A model generated the notes under the pieces. That model made no database searches. It was not told where the DNA came from and was given only the letters and a program-made list of their open reading frames with translations. A DNA stretch of 64,000 nucleotides, taken from assembly GCF_041053105.1 (NCBI RefSeq), contig NZ_CP163444.1, positions 7,038,501-7,102,500 on the forward strand. Direction: 5' to 3'. Below are positions 11,102-56,772 of the stretch, one piece after another. The DNA is from Streptomyces sp. R44 (lineage in GTDB: Bacteria; Actinomycetota; Actinomycetes; Streptomycetales; Streptomycetaceae). Each line of letters starts with the position of its first letter. The first letter of the stretch is position 1. Position numbers and translations under genes: made by a program.

Positions 11102-11404
11102 ATGCGCCACATCAAGCCCGCGCGCCGTGCCCTGACGGCGCTGCTCGCCACGACGCTGCTCGCCGGGGGCGTGCTGCTCGGACAGACGGTGACGGCCGAG
11201 CCGGCCGCCGCCAAGACCATCACCTGCAACGTCAGCAAGCTGCGGGCGGACGCCCACAAGGAGCGCGACCGGGGCAACCAGCTCAAGCGCCTCGGCGCCA
11301 AGGACGAGGCCCGCAAGGCCTTCGCCCGCGCCGACGCCCTGGAGCGCAAGGCCAAGGCGTGCGCCGACGCGGACAACAACAGCAAGCCGCCGCTCTGGAA
11401 GTAG
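11102..11404 (+). CDS. small secreted protein of unknown function
   Basis: A 100-residue protein. The signal peptide (LTALLATTLLAGGVLLGQTVTA) ends near residue 35, leaving a short, highly charged helical mature domain (KLRADAHKERDRGNQLKRLG) with two cysteines (Cys near residues 41 and 92) that could form a disulfide. GGAG lies a few bases upstream of ATG 11102. No family recognised. A TTACC-N4-GGTA dyad lies in its promoter and a hairpin terminator follows its stop. Confidence 0.75.
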   Translation: MRHIKPARRALTALLATTLLAGGVLLGQTVTAEPAAAKTITCNVSKLRADAHKERDRGNQLKRLGAKDEARKAFARADALERKAKACADADNNSKPPLWK

Positions 11405-11412
11405 TACGTCAC

Positions 11413-11452
11413 GCGGGGCGGTTGCCATCCGAAAGGACGGCGACCGCCCCGC
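11413..11452. terminator. bidirectional terminator between convergent genes
   Basis: GCGGGGCGGTTGCC (11413-11426) pairs with GGCGACCGCCCCGC (11439-11452) with one G-T wobble and is followed by a short T-rich run. It separates the secreted-protein gene from the oxidase gene. Confidence 0.75.
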
Positions 11453-11469
11453 GGTCGTTTCCGGACACG

Positions 11470-12426
11470 TCAGCCCATCGCCAGCTCCGCCGCCGCCTCC
11501 GCGCAGCCCCAGGCCACCGTCACCCCGGCGCCGCCGTGCCCGTAGTTGTGGACGAGCCGGCCGCCACCGGGCAGCGGCACCGCCTCGATCCGCACCCCGC
11601 CCACCCGCGCGGGCCGCAGGCCCACCCGGTGGCCCAGGACCCGGGCCCCCGCGATCTCCGGCCGCACCCGCGCGCACCGCGCCACGATCGCCGCCGCCGT
11701 CGCCGGATCCGGCGCGAGCCGCTCGTCGCCGTCCTCCGCCGTCCCGCCGAGCACCAGCCGGTCCTCGTGCGGGAAGTAGTAGGTGGTCTCGCCCGCCGAC
11801 TCGTCCGCCGCCGTGAACCACTCCTCGATCCCCGGGTTCTCCACCAGGACCAACTGCCCCCGCACCGGCCGCAGTCCGGGATCCGGTACGAGCTCCCGCG
11901 CCGCGAGCCCCGTGCAGTCGACGACCACCGGGGCCTCCGCCGCCACCTCCTCGAAGCCGACGACCTCGCGCCGCTCGAAGGTCCCGCCCAAGGCCTCGAA
12001 CCGGCCCCGCAGGAAGGCGAGATGGACCGGCATGTCGATCAGCGGCAGGCGCGCCGCGAGCCCCGTCCGGTACGGCCCCGGCACCTCCTCCGGCGCCAAC
12101 TGCCGCAGCCCCTCGACCTCCCCTGCCCAGGGGCCGAGCCCGTCGAGGACCGTGCCCGCGTGGACCCCGGCCACCCACTGGACCCCGGTCCGCTCCGGAC
12201 CGACGGCCATCCGCTCGTACACCCGCAGGGAGGTCAGCGCCCACGCGCCGACCTCGGCCGCGGGCTCGATCCGGTACGGCCACCACAGGGCGCCCGCCAC
12301 CGCCGACGTCGTCCCCCACAGGTCGTCCCGGGACCAGATCCGCACCCGACGCCCGCGCTCCGCCAGCCGCGTCGCCGTCGCCAGGCCGACGACCCCGCCC
12401 CCCACCACGATCACGTCGTTCCTCAT
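11470..12426 (-). CDS. FAD-dependent D-amino-acid oxidase-like enzyme
   Basis: A 318-residue protein beginning MRNDVIVVGGGVVGLATATRL, a Rossmann FAD site at the very N terminus. The C-terminal signatures GHRVGLRPARVGG and LVHNYGHGGAGVTVAWG are those of D-amino-acid/D-aspartate oxidases, including the Arg that binds the substrate carboxylate. It would oxidise D-amino acids to 2-oxoacids with hydrogen peroxide release. The start at 12426 is chosen because the FAD motif must be close to the N terminus; upstream open frame lacks homology. Substrate specificity cannot be read from sequence. Confidence 0.9.
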   Translation of the reverse strand: MRNDVIVVGGGVVGLATATRLAERGRRVRIWSRDDLWGTTSAVAGALWWPYRIEPAAEVGAWALTSLRVYERMAVGPERTGVQWVAGVHAGTVLDGLGPWAGEVEGLRQLAPEEVPGPYRTGLAARLPLIDMPVHLAFLRGRFEALGGTFERREVVGFEEVAAEAPVVVDCTGLAARELVPDPGLRPVRGQLVLVENPGIEEWFTAADESAGETTYYFPHEDRLVLGGTAEDGDERLAPDPATAAAIVARCARVRPEIAGARVLGHRVGLRPARVGGVRIEAVPLPGGGRLVHNYGHGGAGVTVAWGCAEAAAELAMG

Positions 12427-12496
12427 GCCCGGGACCGTACCGGGACCATGACATTTCCGGGACGGTGCGGCCACGGAAGCGGGAAACACTGGAGTC

Positions 12497-12946
12497 ATGC
12501 CGGTCCCGTACACGCCCCTCGACCTCGTCTCCGCCGCCAGCCCGGTCGGCGAGCACCTCCACCACGACTTCCTCGTCGACGGCAGGCCGCTGCTCCACCG
12601 GCTCGACGAGACCGACGGCTTCGACACCGTCTCGCCCCTCGCGGCGGACCTCCCGCCGACCGTCCGCCCCGAGCACGCCCACCGTCTCCTCCTCGCCGAC
12701 GGCACGCGCCAGGTGATCCACTCCTGCCCCGACTGCGAGGACCCCGGCTGCGGCACGGTCACCGCCGTCGTCGCCCGCGAGGGCTCGGACGTCGTCTGGC
12801 GCGACTTCGCGTGGCAGACCGGCCCCGCCGTCGACCTCGTACGCGAGGGCTACCCCGGCGTCGGCCCGTACCGCTTCCACGGCGCCGGCTACCGCTCCGT
12901 GCTCCTGCGGCTCCTCGAATCCTCGGCGTGTCGCCGCGTCGCCTAG
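12497..12946 (+). CDS. hypothetical protein with CxxCxxxxC motif
   Basis: A 149-residue soluble protein divergent from the oxidase gene. The one notable feature is SCPDCEDPGCG at about residues 76-86, a possible small zinc or redox knuckle, followed by beta-rich sequence (VVWRDFAWQTG). I do not recognise a family. It ends 13 bases before the ABC-F gene and is probably co-transcribed with it. Confidence 0.7.
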   Translation: MPVPYTPLDLVSAASPVGEHLHHDFLVDGRPLLHRLDETDGFDTVSPLAADLPPTVRPEHAHRLLLADGTRQVIHSCPDCEDPGCGTVTAVVAREGSDVVWRDFAWQTGPAVDLVREGYPGVGPYRFHGAGYRSVLLRLLESSACRRVA

Positions 12947-49271: not shown

Positions 49272-50066
49272 GTGGCAGACGATTCGAGATCAACAGACAA
49301 GAACGCATTCGGGTCGTACGCGGCGATCGGTGACAGCTTCACCGAGGGCGTCGGAGACCCCGGGCCCGACGGGACGTACGTCGGCTGGGCGGACCGCTTC
49401 GCGGTCCTGCTCGCCGACCAGCTGCCGGAGCACGACGACTTCCGCTACGCCAACCTGGCCGTACGCGGGCGCCTTCTCGACCAGATCGTGGCGGAACAGG
49501 TCCCCCGGGCGAAGGAACTCGCCCCCGACCTGGTGACCTTCTGCGCAGGCGGCAACGACATCATCCGCCCCGGGACGGACCCCGACGAGGTGGCCGAGCG
49601 CTTCGAGCGCGCCGTCGCCGACCTCACCTCCGCCGTCGGCACCGTCATGGTGACCACCGGCTTCGACACCCGTGACGTGACCCTGCTCAAGCACCTGCGC
49701 GGCAAGATCGCCACGTACAACGGACACGTCCGGGCCATCGCGGACCGCTACGACTGCCCGGTCCTCGACCTGTGGTCGCTGAAGTCCGTCCAGGACCGCC
49801 GTGCCTGGGACGACGACCGGCTGCACCTCTCGCCCGAGGGACACACCCGCGTCGCCCTGCGCGCCGCCCAGGTCCTCGGCATGCCGGTGCCCGCCGACCC
49901 CGACCAGCCCTGGCCGCCGGTCCCGCCGCGCGGCACGCTCGAGGTGCGCCGCGACGACATCCACTGGGCCAGGGAGTACCTGGTGCCGTGGATCGGGCGC
50001 CGGCTGCGCGGCGAGAGCTCCGGCGACCACGTCGAGGCCAAGCGCCCCGACCTCATGCCCCTGTAG
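49272..50066 (+). CDS. SGNH/GDSL hydrolase
   Basis: A 264-residue cytoplasmic SGNH hydrolase. Block I is AAIGDSFTEGVGDP (Ser nucleophile), block III is FCAGGNDIIRPG, and the Asp-His pair lies in WDDDRLHLSPEGH. It would hydrolyse an ester, perhaps a lipid or acylated sugar; the substrate is unknown. The C-terminal ~60 residues extend past the core. GTG start at 49272 after a GAAGGGGAAAA purine run. It overlaps the convergent STM4011-type gene by 14 bases. Confidence 0.9.
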   Translation: MADDSRSTDKNAFGSYAAIGDSFTEGVGDPGPDGTYVGWADRFAVLLADQLPEHDDFRYANLAVRGRLLDQIVAEQVPRAKELAPDLVTFCAGGNDIIRPGTDPDEVAERFERAVADLTSAVGTVMVTTGFDTRDVTLLKHLRGKIATYNGHVRAIADRYDCPVLDLWSLKSVQDRRAWDDDRLHLSPEGHTRVALRAAQVLGMPVPADPDQPWPPVPPRGTLEVRRDDIHWAREYLVPWIGRRLRGESSGDHVEAKRPDLMPL

Positions 50067-50916
50067 CGGACGGTACGGCGGCGGGGATCCGCTCCAGGAC
50101 CCCGCCGGCGAACACGTCGTACAGCGGCAGCGTCTCCAGGTGGACGTAGCCGATGTGGCAGTCGCAGACGGCGAGGGGGCAGGCGCGGGGACGCAGGGCG
50201 GCACGGTACGAGCCGTCGTACAGGTTCCCCAGCTCGGCCCTGACGAAGTGGCAGCGCCGCACCGTCCCCTCGCCGTCCACCGAGATCACCGATTCACCGG
50301 TGCGGCAGGGCAGCCCCGCCGAGCGGTGCGGATGCCGGCTGTACGGGAACAGCGGGTCGAGCTCCGTCCAGCCCTCGGCCTCCGCGTCGGTGTACGTGTG
50401 GCCCTCGGCCGCGTTCACCCAGAGGTAGACGTGCGGCGGCAGCGCCGCCCGCAGCCGGCGGGCCTCCTCCCGGTGCTCCGGAAGACCGACCACCCCGACG
50501 CTGTAGCGGACGTTCCGCCGGGTGAGCTCCCGGCACTTCGTGAGGAACCGCTCGTACGGAGTCTGCCCCGGGTGGTACGTGCACCAGAGCGCCACGCTCT
50601 CCGGGTCCGCCTCGGCCAGCCACTCCGTCCGGCAGCTCAGATTGGTCTGGATCGCCACCCGCTCCACCTGGGGGAGCCGCGACAGCTCGACCAGCGCCCG
50701 CCGGTACCAGGAGCGGACCAGGCCCTCGCCCCACGGGGTGAAGAGGATCCGCAGCCGGTCCCCGGTCTGCGCCGCGGCCCAGCCGGTGAACCGTTCCAGC
50801 GCCGCCCGGTCCGCGCGCAGCTGCTCCCGGCTGTCCCGGCGCTTGGCGAAGGGACAGTACGGGCAGTCGAAATCGCAGGAGGAGAGCGGGCCCCGGTAGA
50901 GCAGGGTGAGATCCAC
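50053..50916 (-). CDS. STM4011 family radical SAM protein
   Basis: A 287-residue radical SAM enzyme, last gene of a five-gene operon. The SAM-cluster cysteines are C14, C18, C21 (CDFDCPYC). The C-terminal part has more cysteines: LPCRTG, RRCHF and CPLAVCDC, resembling an auxiliary iron-sulfur cluster domain as in peptide- or protein-modifying radical SAM enzymes. The family name comes from Salmonella; its reaction is not known. It lies 9 bases downstream of the STM4012-type gene. Confidence 0.85.
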   Translation of the reverse strand: MDLTLLYRGPLSSCDFDCPYCPFAKRRDSREQLRADRAALERFTGWAAAQTGDRLRILFTPWGEGLVRSWYRRALVELSRLPQVERVAIQTNLSCRTEWLAEADPESVALWCTYHPGQTPYERFLTKCRELTRRNVRYSVGVVGLPEHREEARRLRAALPPHVYLWVNAAEGHTYTDAEAEGWTELDPLFPYSRHPHRSAGLPCRTGESVISVDGEGTVRRCHFVRAELGNLYDGSYRAALRPRACPLAVCDCHIGYVHLETLPLYDVFAGGVLERIPAAVPSATGA

Positions 50917-50925
50917 GGCCGCCCC

Positions 50926-52257
50926 CTACTTCGCTTCGTACGCGGCCATCGCGGCCGCCACGGAGGGGGAGAACAGCTCGGGGCCGAGCCCGTCCGAGTG
51001 CGCGAGCCCCTCGGGCGAAAGCCGCAGCAGCCCCGCCGGGGCGTCCGCCAGCCAGCCGTACTCCGCGAACCGGGCGAGCTCCGGGCCGAAGTCCGCGAAC
51101 GGCGAGGACCCGAACCGCTCCTCGTACCCGGCGACCGGCATGCCCTCGGCCTGGAGCAGCGACTGGAGGAGATGACGGCGACGGGCCTCGTCCCCGTCCA
51201 CCGCCCGGCCCACCTCCGCGCGGGAGAAGTCCTCCGTCTCCGTGTACGCGTCGATGATCGAGCGGATCTCCCGCATGTCGACGGCGTAGTCGAAGGAGTA
51301 GTGCAGGGCCGAGGTGTACGAGCGGGCGCCGCAGCCCAGGCCGATCATGCCGTCCGTCTGGCAGGCGTAGTCGTCCGGGCCCGCGGGAGCGGCGTCCACG
51401 CGGCGGAACATCCGCATCGACACCTGCTCGTAGCCGTGGGCGAGGAGATGGTCCCGGCCGTACCGGTAGAGGCGTAGCCGCCGCTCGTCCCACTCCCGGT
51501 CGGCGGCCGCCGGATCCTGGAGCCGGCCGAGACCGGTCAGCGGGCGCACGTACAGCGGATAGAGGTACAGCTCCTCGGGCTTCCAGGCGAGGGCCGCGTC
51601 GAGCGAGACCCGCCAGGACCGCTCCGTCTGACCGTCGATCCCGTAGATCAGGTCGATGTTGAGCACGGGCACGCCGGTGTCACGGATCCGGCCGAGCGCC
51701 GCCTCGACGTCCGCGCGGTGCTGCGGCCGGACGGCGGCCCTCGCCTCGGCCTCCACGAAGCTCTGCACGCCGATGCTGAGCCGGGTCGCGCCCCGGTCCG
51801 CGAGGAGCGCGAGCCGGTCGGCGGTCGCGGTCGCCGGCGAGGTCTCCACGGAGAGCGGCACCGCGCGCAGGTCCACGCCCATCCGCTTCTCGGCGATGTC
51901 GCAGAGCCGCTCCAGCTCGGCGGCGGTGAGGAAGGTGGGCGTGCCGCCGCCGAACGCGGCCGTGGCGAACCGCACCGGTGCCGCGTCGCCGAGGGCCTCG
52001 CGGACGGCGGTCGCCTGGCGGTCGAGGGCGTCGAGGTAGCGGGTGGTCAGCTCGTCCGGGGCGCCGATCCGGGTGAAGAGGTTGCAGAAGCCGCAGCGGA
52101 CCTCGCAGAACGGTATGTGCGCGTAGAGCGAGAGCGCGTCCTTCGGCTCGGCGGCCCAGAGGGCGGCGAGCCCGGGGGGCTCGGGGAGCGCGCGGTAGGC
52201 CGTCTTGTGCGGGTAGGCGTAGACGTAGCTGCGGTACGGGCGGGGGGTCGGGCTCAT
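50926..52257 (-). CDS. STM4012 family radical SAM protein (HemN-like)
   Basis: A 443-residue protein close in plan to HemN/HemW: YAHIPFCEVRCGFCNLF with cluster cysteines C51, C55, C58, then GGGTPTFLTAAELERL and RLSIGVQSFVE, with a C-terminal winged-helix-like part. HemN-like enzymes include heme chaperones and methylases; this family's role is unknown. It starts by ATGA overlap with the STM4013-type gene, so the two are made together. Confidence 0.87.
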   Translation of the reverse strand: MSPTPRPYRSYVYAYPHKTAYRALPEPPGLAALWAAEPKDALSLYAHIPFCEVRCGFCNLFTRIGAPDELTTRYLDALDRQATAVREALGDAAPVRFATAAFGGGTPTFLTAAELERLCDIAEKRMGVDLRAVPLSVETSPATATADRLALLADRGATRLSIGVQSFVEAEARAAVRPQHRADVEAALGRIRDTGVPVLNIDLIYGIDGQTERSWRVSLDAALAWKPEELYLYPLYVRPLTGLGRLQDPAAADREWDERRLRLYRYGRDHLLAHGYEQVSMRMFRRVDAAPAGPDDYACQTDGMIGLGCGARSYTSALHYSFDYAVDMREIRSIIDAYTETEDFSRAEVGRAVDGDEARRRHLLQSLLQAEGMPVAGYEERFGSSPFADFGPELARFAEYGWLADAPAGLLRLSPEGLAHSDGLGPELFSPSVAAAMAAYEAK

Positions 52258-53090
52258 GCGGCTTCACCGTCCTCGGGGCCGGGCAGGACGAACTGTGCGT
52301 ACGGCACGGTCCACACGACGTCGTGGCCGAGCCGGTGGCCGGTGAAGCCGTCCTCGCCGTACGCGGTGCCGTGGTCGGAGCAGACGATCGCGAAACAGGG
52401 GCGGCGGCTGCTCATCGCGGCGAAGAGCCGCCCGATGTGCCGGTCGACGTACTCCAGGGCGGCCGCGTGGGTCTCCCGGGAGTCGCCGGCCTCGCGGGTC
52501 GCCCCCGGCAGATGGAACCAGTTGGGCTGGTGCAGCGCCGACACGTTGACGAAGAGGAAGAGGCGCTCCTCCCGGGGGAGGCCGGCGACGACCTCCTCGG
52601 CGCGTGCGACCTGGGACTCGAAGGAGGACGGGGAGGCGACGCCGAAGGAGGGCTCCCAGTGGCTCTCGCGGAACAGGCCGGGGAGTACCGAGCCGAGGGG
52701 TGGCTGCTTGTTGAAGAAGCCGACCCCGCCGACGCAGACCGTCCGGTAGCCCTCCCGCGCGAGGGCGGAGACGAAGTCGGGGGTGTCGTGGACCCATGTG
52801 CCGTCGGCGGTCGACTCGCTGCCCGCGAAGCGGGCCGCGAACAGCCGGGGGTGCGGCCCCTGCGACGCGGGGGTCGGCAGGAAACCGGCGAAGATCGCCT
52901 GGTGGGAGGCGTACGTGAAGCTCCCGGGCGCGTGCCGCCGCTCCCAGACGCCGCCGGGCAGATGCCGGGCCAGGTTCGGGATGCGGCCCTCGGCCGCGAG
53001 CTCCGCCGCCACGTCGTACCGGAGGGTGTCGAGGGTGACCAGGAGCAGATCGTGGCTGCCGACGATCGCGTTCATGTCGGGCTGGTTCAC
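52254..53090 (-). CDS. STM4013/SEN3800 family sulfatase-like hydrolase
   Basis: A 278-residue alkaline-phosphatase-superfamily hydrolase. Metal-binding Asp appears at once in LLLVTLDTLRYD, and the second site in CSDHGTAYGEDG; HLPGGVWERRHAPGSFTYASH supplies the nucleophile region, with Thr or Ser candidates. No Cys-based formylglycine signature is evident, so it is more likely a phosphodiesterase or phosphatase type than a classical sulfatase. Start by GTGA overlap with the ATP-grasp gene; no signal peptide, so it acts in the cytoplasm. Confidence 0.85.
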   Translation of the reverse strand: MNQPDMNAIVGSHDLLLVTLDTLRYDVAAELAAEGRIPNLARHLPGGVWERRHAPGSFTYASHQAIFAGFLPTPASQGPHPRLFAARFAGSESTADGTWVHDTPDFVSALAREGYRTVCVGGVGFFNKQPPLGSVLPGLFRESHWEPSFGVASPSSFESQVARAEEVVAGLPREERLFLFVNVSALHQPNWFHLPGATREAGDSRETHAAALEYVDRHIGRLFAAMSSRRPCFAIVCSDHGTAYGEDGFTGHRLGHDVVWTVPYAQFVLPGPEDGEAA

Positions 53091-54280
53091 GTGGTGCTCG
53101 TTCCTGTGGTGCTGGTACCTGTGGTGCTGGTTTCGTAGGGGTGCGGAAACTGCGCCGCGACCTGGGCACCGTACGTGTCGAGCCCCTCGGCTCCGCTGCC
53201 GGGCAGGCCCGTGAGGCCGGGCAGCAGATCGCCGAAGGCGTTCACCTCGCCCACCGCGAACCGGCGCCAGCCGCTCGCGGGCAGCAGATCGACGCCCACG
53301 CACCGGGTGCCGGGGAAGGCGGCGGCGGCCCGCTCGCACACCCCGAGGGCGTCCGCCCAGCGGCCGCCGGCCGCGGCGATCGCCGTGCGCGCGGCGGCCA
53401 GATCGCCCCGGGTGCCGCCCAGGTGCAGATTGGTCATGGGGGAGCGGCTGGTGCGGAGCACGGCATGGGTGGCGCGCCCGTCGACCACCACCACCCGCAG
53501 ATCGGCGGCCCGGCCGTCCTGCGTGGCCTTCGGCAGCCAGCGCTCCACGTGCAGACCGTCGGGGGCGAGGGCGTCCACGATCGCGGCGACCTCCCGCTCG
53601 CTCGTGTAGCGCCGTACCCGCAGGGAGTTGAAGAGCCGTCCGTCGGCTGCGCGCTCCACCGAGGTGGTGGCCTGGACGCGGCCCGCGCCGTTCGTCTCCA
53701 GCGCGAGGACCCCCGAGGCGGAGGAGCCGTGCGCGAGCTTCACGAACACCCGGCGCATACCGCTCTCGGCGGTCAGCGTCCTGACGTCCGCCCAGCCGCG
53801 CACCACCGGGGCGCCGGGTCCCGACGTCGGCGACTCGGGCACCGGGACACCGGCCGTCCTTAGCCGGCCGTGGCTCAGCCGCTTGTCGAACAGGACCGCG
53901 AGCTCGGCGGGGTCGTCGACGAGGACGGCGCCCGCCTCGGCGACGGAGCGGGCGAGGTCCGCCACGGCGGCGGTGAACCGCCCGTACCAGCGGCCGGTGC
54001 CCTCGACCCGGGCCGGATCGTCGACCCCGCGCAGCAGCCGGTCCGCCTCCGGATCCTCGCCGGGGGAATCCAGCCGCACGGTCTCGCCCGCTTCGAACCG
54101 CGCCCGGCCCCGGAGCACGTCCGGCCACGTCACCGCCCGCGCCTCGGGCAGCCCGGCGGTCCGCAGCGCGTCCTGGAAGAACGCGACGCGGCGGCCCGCC
54201 GGATCGCCGACGACGACGAGGCGCGACCTTCGGCGGTCCGTCGGGTCGCCGACGGCCACGGGGCGCGGGCCGGAGGTCAT
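53087..54280 (-). CDS. STM4014 family ATP-grasp-like protein
   Basis: A 397-residue protein. From residue ~130 it has ATP-grasp features: LFDKRLSHGRLRTAGVPVP (entry to the fold), RRVFVKLAHGSSASGVLAL (ATP-binding Lys and Gly-rich loop), LHVERWLPKA, and CVGVDLLPA with VGEVNAFGDLLPG (Mg-binding Glu and Asn). ATP-grasp enzymes form amide or related bonds via acyl phosphates. The N-terminal ~100 residues are family-specific. The tail ends in repeated TSTTG units from three 15-bp DNA repeats at 53091-53135. Overlaps both neighbours by 4 bases. Confidence 0.85.
   Translation of the reverse strand: MTSGPRPVAVGDPTDRRRSRLVVVGDPAGRRVAFFQDALRTAGLPEARAVTWPDVLRGRARFEAGETVRLDSPGEDPEADRLLRGVDDPARVEGTGRWYGRFTAAVADLARSVAEAGAVLVDDPAELAVLFDKRLSHGRLRTAGVPVPESPTSGPGAPVVRGWADVRTLTAESGMRRVFVKLAHGSSASGVLALETNGAGRVQATTSVERAADGRLFNSLRVRRYTSEREVAAIVDALAPDGLHVERWLPKATQDGRAADLRVVVVDGRATHAVLRTSRSPMTNLHLGGTRGDLAAARTAIAAAGGRWADALGVCERAAAAFPGTRCVGVDLLPASGWRRFAVGEVNAFGDLLPGLTGLPGSGAEGLDTYGAQVAAQFPHPYETSTTGTSTTGTSTT
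53091..53135. repeat. three tandem 15-bp repeats at the end of the ATP-grasp gene
   Basis: The units GTGGTGCTCGTTCCT, GTGGTGCTGGTACCT and GTGGTGCTGGTTTCG encode (TSTTG)n on the minus strand, immediately before the overlapping stop/start with the hydrolase gene. Confidence 0.8.
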
Positions 54281-55236
54281 TCGGCGACCGCGACGTAGCG
54301 CCAGACGTCCCCGTCGCCGTCGTCCTCCGCCACCTGCGCGTCGGCGAGGTCGACCGTCACCCCGTGCGGGACGAGCGCGGCGCGGACGCGCTCGCACATG
54401 GCCTCCGACAGGTAGTGGTGCGAGAGGTCGAGGTGGGCGAGATGGGTCAGCGGCTGCCCGTCGAGGAGGGCCGCCGCGCCCTCGTCGGTGAGCACGCCCA
54501 TGGAGAGGTCGAGCCGCTCGATCCGGGCGACGACGGGCGCGCCCGCGACAGCGGCTGCCACGGCGTCCTGGATCACGCTGTCGCACAGGCCCAGGTCGCG
54601 CAGGGCGGGGAACGCCGTGCCGGCGAGCAGCGGCGCCAGGTCGTCGGTGGTGCTGTCGCCGCCGTACTCGTCGGTGCCGAGCCAGAGTTCCAGCTTCTCC
54701 AGGGCGGGCAGGTCGCTGCCGACGATGCCGCGCACCACCTCGGCGCGCAGGCCGCCGGTCTGGACGACCAGGGTCCGCAGACCGGTGTGCCGGATCGACG
54801 GGAACGCCAGCTCCGAGCCACCGCGCACCCCGAACTCCGCCAGAGCCGGGTAGGCGGCGAGCAGCGGAGTCACGTCGGACTGGATGATCCAGGAGATCTC
54901 GCAGTCCTCGCCCGTCATGTCGCCGAGGAACACCGCCTCCAGGGCCGACAGCCGGTTGTTGGCGCCGATCAGCGCGGTGACGATGTCGGCGGACGAGTTC
55001 TCGTAGGCCTCGTCCCAGCCGCCGACGACCAGCGCGCGCACCCGCCCCGGGTCGACCGTCTTCAGGAACCGCTCGAACTGCTGCCCCCACAGCTCGTCGC
55101 CGGGATCGGAGTACGTCGGGGCGGAGATCCGCCAGGCGACCGTGTCCGTCGCGGGCAGCTCGACCTGTGCGTCCGCGCCCGGGAAGTCGAACACGGGCAG
55201 GCCGTGGAATTCCTGCAGGTGGGTGCCAACGGTCAT
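54277..55236 (-). CDS. STM4015 family leucine-rich-repeat-like protein
   Basis: A 319-residue protein from ATG 55236 (MTVGTHLQEFHGLPVFDFPG). The N-terminal half is family-specific (RISAPTYSDPGDELWGQQFERFL; VVGGWDEAYENSS). The second half has several LRR-like repeats (LPALEKLELWLG; FPALRDLGLCDS; LTHLAHLDLSHHYLSE). LRR folds usually bind proteins. First gene of the operon; its stop overlaps the ATP-grasp gene (ATGA). A 166-base divergent promoter region separates it from the gene at 55403. Confidence 0.87.
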   Translation of the reverse strand: MTVGTHLQEFHGLPVFDFPGADAQVELPATDTVAWRISAPTYSDPGDELWGQQFERFLKTVDPGRVRALVVGGWDEAYENSSADIVTALIGANNRLSALEAVFLGDMTGEDCEISWIIQSDVTPLLAAYPALAEFGVRGGSELAFPSIRHTGLRTLVVQTGGLRAEVVRGIVGSDLPALEKLELWLGTDEYGGDSTTDDLAPLLAGTAFPALRDLGLCDSVIQDAVAAAVAGAPVVARIERLDLSMGVLTDEGAAALLDGQPLTHLAHLDLSHHYLSEAMCERVRAALVPHGVTVDLADAQVAEDDGDGDVWRYVAVAE

Positions 55237-55402: not shown

Positions 55403-55729
55403 ATGTACCGGCAGGGAGACGTGCTGATCGCGCCCGTCGCGGAGACCGCGGTTCCGGAGCGGGCCAAGGCGGCGGCGGGGGAACCGAGGGACGCCCGGGG
55501 GCGCCTGCTCCTCGCCCTCGGCGAGGTCACCGGGCACGCCCACGCGATCCCCGGCCCCGGCCGGCTCGTGCGCGAACCGGGACCATTGGGCCCGCTCCTG
55601 CTCGAACTGCCCGAGGGCGGGCGGGTGGTGCACGAGGAGCACGCGCCGATACCGCTGCCCAAGGGCTGGTACCGGGTCGTGCGGCAGCGGGAGTACGTGC
55701 CGGGGGCGTACCGGATCGTGGCGGACTGA
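55403..55729 (+). CDS. small conserved hypothetical protein
   Basis: A 108-residue soluble protein with distinctive segments: YRQGDVLIAPV, LALGEVTGHAHAI, HEEHAPIPLPKGWYRVVRQREY. The conserved His residues suggest metal binding or catalysis, but I do not recognise a characterised function. ATG 55403 follows GAGGGGAGA. Its stop overlaps an ATG of the next gene (TGATG), so the pair forms one unit divergent from the STM4015-4011 operon. Confidence 0.8.
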   Translation: MYRQGDVLIAPVAETAVPERAKAAAGEPRDARGRLLLALGEVTGHAHAIPGPGRLVREPGPLGPLLLELPEGGRVVHEEHAPIPLPKGWYRVVRQREYVPGAYRIVAD

Positions 55730-55770
55730 TGTCCGCCGGAGAGAAGCGAAGGGCAATGGGGGAGAACGAG

Positions 55771-56772
55771 ATGAACCGCACCACCGCCGCGGACACATGG
55801 CCGGCCGTCGCCGCCGCCACCGGGCCCGCCGACCGCGCCGCCGCCGAGGCCGGCGTCCGGTTCGCCTACCGCTCGGCGGCCCTCGTCCCTCCGGAGCGCG
55901 TGCTCTGGGCGGACTCGCCGCTCGCCGCCGTCACGCTCGTACGGGGCCTGGCGGACCGGGGGCGTTCGGTACGGGACGAGGTGCGCACCCGGCCGTGGGC
56001 CGAGGAGCGCCGCCGCCTCCACGACGCGCTCGGCCCGGCCGGCTGGGCAGCACACTGGCAGGCGACCGGAGCCCAGCTCTGGGACCTGACGCGGAGCCTC
56101 GCGGACCGGATACGGGCGGGAGTGACGGAAGCGGCGGGCGCCGACGCGGCCGACGTGCGGCTGCTGCTCCTCGACGCCGTCCTCGGGCAGCACGACGCGG
56201 CCTGGCTCGCCGCCTTCGACGGACACGGCGTACGGCTCGCGGGACTCGTCACCGCCGCCGAGCACGCGGGCTGGTGGTGGCCCTACGAGAACGCCGTCGT
56301 GATCTGCGAGCGGCCCGTCGAGCTCCACCGGGACGAGGCCGGCCGCCTCGACCGGGGCGACGGCCCCGCGCTCGCCTTCCCGGACGGGTTCGCCCTCCAT
56401 GCCTGGCGGGGCATGCCGGTGCCCGCCGAGTTCCTCGCCGGCCTCGCCGGACTCGCCCCCGAGCGGATACGCGAGGAGGAGAACGCCGAACTGCGGCGGG
56501 TGATGCTGGAGTACTACGGCTACGACCGCTACCTCGCCGCCTCCGGCGCCCGGCACGAGCACAGCGACGAGACGGGCGTCCTCTGGCGGATCGAACTCGC
56601 CGACGACGAGGACGTGGTGATGGTCGAGGTCGTCAACTCCACGCCCGAACCGGACGGCACCCACCGGACGTACTGGCTGCGGGTGCCGCCCACGACCCGG
56701 ACCGCGCGGGAGGGCGTCGCCTGGACCTTCGGGCTCCGGCCCGAGGAGTACGAGCCGCTCGTCCAGACCTAG
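55771..56772 (+). CDS. DUF6745-like protein
   Basis: A 333-residue protein from ATG 55771, chosen for GGGGGAG 6 bases upstream; ATG 55729, overlapping the previous stop, and ATG 55756 are in frame and possible. The region RPVELHRDEAGRLDRGDGPALAFPDG is the recurring motif of the DUF6745 group, a domain found in multi-copy proteins in actinobacteria and phages with unknown activity. N-terminal half is helical; C-terminal half has an acidic beta-rich segment (ELADDEDVVMVEVVNS). Its DNA abundance in Trp and His motifs is unlike secreted proteins; likely cytoplasmic. Confidence 0.75.
   Translation: MNRTTAADTWPAVAAATGPADRAAAEAGVRFAYRSAALVPPERVLWADSPLAAVTLVRGLADRGRSVRDEVRTRPWAEERRRLHDALGPAGWAAHWQATGAQLWDLTRSLADRIRAGVTEAAGADAADVRLLLLDAVLGQHDAAWLAAFDGHGVRLAGLVTAAEHAGWWWPYENAVVICERPVELHRDEAGRLDRGDGPALAFPDGFALHAWRGMPVPAEFLAGLAGLAPERIREEENAELRRVMLEYYGYDRYLAASGARHEHSDETGVLWRIELADDEDVVMVEVVNSTPEPDGTHRTYWLRVPPTTRTAREGVAWTFGLRPEEYEPLVQT

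Follow-up and report, generated by a model that had tools for sequence, protein, structure and literature searches.

A conserved glutamate-ended tail on a leucine-rich repeat protein is a candidate attachment site in the STM4011-STM4015 cassette

The five-gene operon

A stretch of 64,000 nucleotides from Streptomyces sp. R44 (assembly GCF_041053105.1, contig NZ_CP163444.1, positions 7,038,501 to 7,102,500; hereafter the window, numbered from its first letter) encodes on its minus strand an operon of five genes belonging to the families STM4011-STM4015, which are named only after Salmonella locus tags despite their occurrence in several phyla and that of STM4014 in 189 of 392 genus-mates. The leucine-rich repeat (LRR) protein STM4015 closes in a conserved tail ending in glutamate, an element new relative to the initial annotation of this DNA and a specific, testable candidate attachment site.

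The five window proteins all pass the curated NCBIfam cut-offs of their families. The STM4015 homologue, the proposed carrier or target (319 aa; 54277-55236; NF038076, 394 bits against a cut-off of 275), is followed by the STM4014 homologue, an ATP-grasp ligase (397 aa; 53087-54280; NF038074, 452 against 175), the STM4013 homologue, an alkaline-phosphatase-fold hydrolase starting with GTG and offering an ATG alternative at 53075 (52254-53090; NF038075, 425 against 250), the STM4012 homologue, a HemN-like radical S-adenosylmethionine (SAM) enzyme (50926-52257; NF006067, 639 against 380), and the STM4011 homologue, a radical SAM enzyme with a putative SPASM/twitch-like C-terminal domain and a GTG start (50053-50916; NF038073, 420 against 200). 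Overlaps of four bases join the first four genes (ATGA 54277-54280, GTGA 53087-53090, ATGA 52254-52257) and a gap of nine separates STM4012 from STM4011, a layout that can be read directly from the sequence and that the initial annotation had given correctly together with the family assignments; the fixed stoichiometry it thought likely from the overlaps is not supported, since overlaps cannot show stoichiometry and up to four STM4015 copies accompany one enzyme set in some genomes. The cassette is already known but uncharacterised: in the open-licence literature the five locus tags are mentioned only in passing and DUF6745, the family of a neighbouring protein, is without mention, which does not establish that they are undescribed. 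The 3' end of STM4011 overlaps that of a convergent GDSL-lipase gene (49272-50066, plus strand) by 14 bases (50053-50066).

The STM4015 tail

STM4015 has a solved relative, 2ra8 (E 1.5e-40). In the window the LRR body is joined by an acidic linker (54304-54345, minus strand) to the tail WRYVAVAE and stop codon (54277-54303, minus strand), with the terminal Glu codon at 54280-54282. Across 100 STM4015 proteins, residues -9 to -24 (counted back from the last) average 44% Asp or Glu against 16% in the body, and the tail follows the consensus W-R-Y/F-x-x-x-[TGSA]-E, with Glu closing all 100 closed frames, Arg at -7 in 97, Tyr, Phe, Ser and Asn at -6 in 78, 19, 2 and 1, respectively, and Thr, Gly, Ser or Ala at -2 without exception. 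Thinning of 101 proteins to less than 60% body identity left 27, all ending in Glu (entropy zero), with entropies of 0.61 bits at -7, 1.94 at -2 and 1.76 to 3.43 at -9 to -24; the last residue is not fixed in any of the families STM4011-STM4014. A DNA pattern for the tail matched once in the window and in none of 100 shuffles, and in four whole genomes it gave eight matches, all of them STM4015 ends, recovering eight of nine known tails (reversed control, one match).

A second test started from the Bacteroides protein: among the matches listed, 99 of its 101 homologues reaching the C-terminal region end in TE and the others in N and F; these were drawn from 120 of 418 matches, with 19 left out for an unaligned C-terminal region, they were counted irrespective of the STM4014 status of their genomes, and one of the two non-Glu homologues (P0350) is a probable chimera. 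In the structure 2ra8, a close relative of Bacteroides STM4015, the chain runs to 362 residues and ITE stands at residue 354, with what is presumably a tag after it. The initial annotation had proposed the LRR protein as substrate carrier or as recognition subunit, and it is the substrate or carrier role that gains from the invariant C-terminal Glu and its absence from five ligase-free genomes (below); WGR domains, present on Bacteroides and Undibacterium STM4015 proteins, hint at recognition by the body, which is speculation.

Distribution and gene order

Co-occurrence confined to close relatives, which the initial annotation had named as the observation that would tell against a common system, is not what was found: five genes in one order on one strand make up 86 of 92 loci, spread over six phyla (Actinomycetota, Bacillota, Pseudomonadota, Deinococcota, Cyanobacteriota and Acidobacteriota). 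The 92 loci comprise 12 plasmid loci and 80 contig loci retrieved with STM4011 as query (80 of at least 426 relatives), so that co-occurrence in the latter is conditional on that query. Exceptions to the order are a lone STM4012 (L038), two contig edges (L087, L115), a Bacteroides locus with STM4013 and STM4012 reduced to weak remnants (L032), and L110 and the planctomycete L122, in which all five genes are present with STM4014 and STM4015 on the opposite strand; a single frame is split in each of L088 and L092. In unconditional counts from 61 genus-mates the five families are nearly all-or-none, co-occurring above chance: at least four are found in 23 genomes, exactly one in nine, two or three in none, and none in 29. 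The 23 STM4014-positive genomes are the same 23 that carry STM4015, STM4012 and STM4011, and STM4013 is present in 22, the exception (G224) being a fragmented assembly. Single families are STM4015 in G222, STM4012 in G205 and G219, STM4011 in G212, and STM4013 in G199, G217, G231, G243 and G253. In a wider phylum sample the STM4014 cut-off was passed in five of 198 genomes, all from the genus of the window. The patchy spread of the cassette may reflect horizontal transfer. An unlinked, lower-scoring STM4013 paralogue occurs in five operon-free genus-mates and one operon-bearing one (L131-L136).

Coupling of the tail to STM4014

The STM4015 tail is coupled to the presence of STM4014. Of the 392 genus-mates, 194 carry STM4015, and the 189 with STM4014 all belong to these 194. 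The five STM4015-only genomes (assemblies 99-100% complete) lack the terminal Glu in all five copies, which end in ISVGPLTY, ICVGPVSY, FVADGRDF, SICVEGLP and RYVSIAV, and no Glu-ended copy was seen in a ligase-free genome (these five of 392). Unlinked STM4015 copies in operon-bearing genomes keep Glu in 15 of 20 cases, six of the 20 (four with Glu) being all those listed in 61 genomes and 14 coming from genomes chosen for at least three copies; the comparison of 15/20 with 0/5 has a one-sided chance of about 0.005, for copies that are not independent and in many cases non-randomly drawn. In a tree of 91 STM4015 bodies, built with the tail excluded, the ten copies without the tail fall into three groups, for which three losses are needed, and Glu is present in all 66 copies labelled operon, a label covering every copy not known as unlinked; the interrupted copy of G262 falls below the score filter of the tree, and a short piece (G556:C366, 164 bits) lies outside the counts. 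Tail loss is possible without ligase loss, because two of the three tail-less groups include copies from operon-bearing genomes. One operon, in G346 (L183), holds four tandem STM4015 genes, all tail-bearing. Two operons look decayed (L163 in G262 and L161 in G504), with split STM4014 frames in both and an in-frame stop in the STM4015 of G262.

The enzymes

The predicted model of STM4014 (predicted local distance difference test score, pLDDT, 91) shows an ATP-grasp fold, with ArgX, LysX and RimK as the nearest solved folds among the matches listed by VIA-align, and RimK is also the best profile match. Its closest named relatives in sequence are from Streptomyces. Against the LysX family STM4014 scores 19 bits (cut-off 276) and the GSWGR motif is absent from the window protein, though the fold is nearest. 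The C-terminus of the window STM4014 (53090-53131, minus strand) is a short repeat, TSTTGTSTTGTSTT.

The extra C-terminal cysteines reported by the initial annotation for one of the two radical SAM enzymes belong to STM4011, which carries CxxxCxxC and, across an alignment of 41 sequences, five additional cysteines that never vary. Its predicted model (pLDDT 90) is nearest to BlsE, SkfB and anSME at 12-20% identity, and a profile search matched the SPASM part of SkfB (E 0.0014); the Pfam SPASM model is under its cut-off on Bacteroides STM4011 and not listed for the window protein. STM4012 has the solved relatives HemN (1olt, E 7e-27) and NocN (9p2u) and carries a HemN_C domain, and its scores stay below the curated cut-offs for HemW (127 bits of 205), HemN (125 of 325) and ChuW/HutW (136 of 400). 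The best profile matches of STM4013 are the phosphodiesterase-nucleotide pyrophosphatases 7n1s and 2gsn; D21, T59, H187, D239, H240, H252 and H256 are invariant in 16 sequences, and the nucleophile is probably the threonine T59.

Phosphatases of a further kind adjoin STM4011 in places. On a Bacteroides finegoldii plasmid (L032, 11009-12938), STM4011 (11373-12938) is fused to a haloacid dehalogenase-type (HAD) phosphatase domain and preceded by the weak STM4013 and STM4012 remnants, within 364 bases holding no listed gene, and in Salmonella (L033, 10084-10818) a Cof-type HAD hydrolase gene overlaps the STM4011 end by 16 bases. A HAD phosphatase was rejected as a sixth core gene, as phmmer with three such sequences returned only those three in the 92 loci.

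Accessory pair and neighbouring genes

Divergent from the operon lies a pair not covered by the initial annotation (55403-56772, plus strand), encoding a 108-aa protein (55403-55729; 34 of 92 loci) and a DUF6745 protein (55771-56772; PF20530, 381 bits). Besides the window, loci of Streptomyces, Nocardia, Nonomuraea, Deinococcus and Methylobacterium, as well as L110 and L122, have the pair next to the operon, and none of 44 Paenibacillus-type loci does. Strong DUF6745 matches (at least 380 bits) are found in 18 of the 23 genomes with the operon and none of the 38 others, and weaker ones (94-107 bits) in three operon-free genomes. The 108-aa protein ends in Asp in 34 of 34 loci and, among the matches listed, in 120 of 120 homologues (VAD 117, IAD 3), and the motifs GH[AS]H and H[ED]EH are retained in the six compared.

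Short conserved open reading frames (ORFs), which the initial annotation had proposed to look for beside the loci, yielded no separate short precursor peptide: no ORF of 20-120 aa is shared between groups by blastp (E 1e-4; 1.5 kb per side; 22 of 93 places, the 92 loci plus the window), in a search run with the 108-aa partner masked and without a sensitivity control. Beyond the five genes and the accessory pair, the 92 loci hold 41 recurrent ORF clusters, most of them one-genus synteny; the widest (19 loci: 11 Paenibacillus-type, seven actinobacterial, one Methylobacterium) reads as a generic ATP-binding cassette transporter ATPase. No hydrolase, peptidase or exporter stood out among these neighbours, an impression from clusters that were not annotated one by one. 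A role in anti-phage defence was also rejected, the best PADLOC match of the five proteins (2e-6) covering part of STM4012 only.

Proposed mechanism and alternatives

Modification, the use to which the initial annotation had put the pairing of radical SAM and ATP-grasp enzymes, is the best fit to the cassette, and we consider it rather probable that STM4014 attaches an amine to the Glu at the end of STM4015, where the two radical SAM enzymes and the phosphoesterase remodel it. STM4015 would serve as a protein-bound scaffold; STM4014, as a RimK/LysX-type ligase, would activate its C-terminal Glu and join to it an amine, in all likelihood that of an amino acid or of an amino sugar; oxidation, rearrangement or the addition of carbon to the tethered group would follow, through STM4011 and STM4012, and STM4013 would remove or transfer a phosphoryl group. 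Retention of the attached group by the LRR protein, as a prosthetic group built into it, would be more likely than its release, because one enzyme set can serve up to four tandem STM4015 genes (G346) or tail-bearing unlinked copies, several LRR copies per genome thus suggesting retention, and, more weakly, because no hydrolase or exporter stood out among the recurrent, unannotated neighbours. The proposal builds on the gene set, the tail, its coupling to STM4014 and the predicted fold class of that enzyme; the ligation, the order of the steps and the retention are what we would infer from them.

Several observations weigh against this proposal. The ligation is reached indirectly, and the tail could be a docking motif. 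STM4014 is weakly RimK-like in sequence (TIGR00768, 25.4 bits, short of the 143.4 cut-off), the profile search scores the inositol-phosphate kinase 9gr8 (E 1.5e-4) as high as RimK, other ATP-grasp enzymes trail by a Z of about 2, and Foldseek places the graspetide ligase PsnB first, PsnB being outside the matches listed by VIA-align, an absence not counted as evidence. Glu is absent in five of the 20 unlinked STM4015 copies from operon-bearing genomes, the tail-loss comparison amounts to three independent events, and in G262, where the operon is decayed and STM4014 is in pieces, the stop in STM4015 comes ahead of the tail. As to the tail itself, -10 and -11 vary no more than -2 does in the thinned set, Salmonella STM4015 retains Glu and loses R and Y, one Bacteroides-type homologue ends in Asn, and STM4015 is not alone in its fixed end, the 108-aa protein (D 34/34) and DUF6745 (T 30/33) having near-fixed last residues as well.

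The same tail may be read as a core peptide in the manner of ribosomally synthesised and post-translationally modified peptides, WRYVAVAE being cross-linked or oxidised by the radical SAM enzymes and cut off as a peptide-derived cofactor of the pyrroloquinoline quinone or mycofactocin style, with STM4014 closing or capping it. The match of the putative SPASM-type domain of STM4011 to the maturase SkfB, the conserved aromatic residues of the tail and the rank of PsnB in the Foldseek list all speak for this, but the aromatic position -6 varies while the last Glu alone is fixed, no peptidase stood out among the unannotated neighbour clusters, and the carrier body is an LRR protein of 280-357 aa; neither a lactam nor a general ester within the tail is expected, because Lys is absent from -1 to -7 in the tails shown and Ser or Thr stands at -2 in only 60 of 100, and we regard this reading as unlikely. 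That the tail is a docking or recognition motif, with STM4015 an adaptor bringing the enzymes to another substrate, would accord with the common fixation of C-terminal docking motifs to the last residue and with the WGR domains of Bacteroides and Undibacterium, which suggest other binding partners; it appears quite improbable given that the solved structures closest to STM4014 belong to ligases for C-terminal Glu and that divergent unlinked copies mostly bear the tail (15/20). An ordinary role in heme or porphyrin metabolism is hardly credible: STM4012 is HemN-like and has HemN_C, yet it fails the HemW, HemN and ChuW/HutW cut-offs, passes that of its own family at 639 bits and travels with an LRR protein and a ligase.

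Relation to known systems and significance

The proposed ligation at the STM4015 tail has its nearest parallels in RimK, which is specific for the C-terminal Glu of ribosomal protein S6 (RpsF), and in the amino-group carrier proteins. RimK is the best STM4014 profile match and acts on a protein C-terminal Glu, whereas STM4014 misses the RimK family cut-off, has another substrate and shares its operon with three further enzymes. LysW ends in EDWGE, and LysX couples its substrate through the amino group to Glu54 of this carrier (PMC10433800). The cassette resembles LysW/ArgW with LysX/ArgX in placing an ATP-grasp ligase beside a protein with an invariant terminal Glu after an acidic stretch, and in having LysX/ArgX among the closest solved folds to STM4014 (VIA-align), but in place of a small zinc protein with EDWGE it has an LRR carrier of about 280-360 aa (319 in the window, ending in RYVAVAE), processing is by radical SAM enzymes and a phosphoesterase, no release enzyme was recognised, and some genomes have several carriers. 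It may well work in a LysX/LysW-like way, but its different type of carrier keeps it out of the amino-group carrier systems.

Pearlins, in which 3-thia-amino acids are built at the C-terminus of a ribosomal carrier peptide with a radical SAM step (PMC9303977), likewise combine a small group at the end of a ribosomal scaffold with radical SAM chemistry, and differ in having a PEARL ligase and carrier peptide where the cassette has an ATP-grasp ligase and LRR scaffold. Graspetides, exemplified by PsnB, the top Foldseek match of STM4014, share an ATP-grasp ligase acting on a ribosomal substrate, but the STM4015 tail is without a Lys for a lactam and no short precursor was found; passages of two papers on RimK-related ATP-grasp clades and graspetides (PMC4431377, PMC8939145) mention neither LRR nor alkaline phosphatase. 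SkfB, BlsE and BtrN for STM4011 and NocN for STM4012 are the nearest folds or sequences, though at low identity (STM4011 12-20%).

A fixed attachment residue on a known protein narrows an open-ended search to one mass-spectrometry question, and, if the proposal is true, carrier-protein chemistry would reach beyond small zinc and peptide carriers and take in LRR proteins. A bolder generalisation, which we put forward tentatively, is that a single enzyme set equips a whole class of bacterial LRR proteins, several copies of which occur in some genomes, with the same radical-SAM-built prosthetic group at the C-terminal Glu; different recognition bodies would then share one reactive or sensing end-group, which would be a protein cofactor of a new kind, assembled on the protein and staying there.
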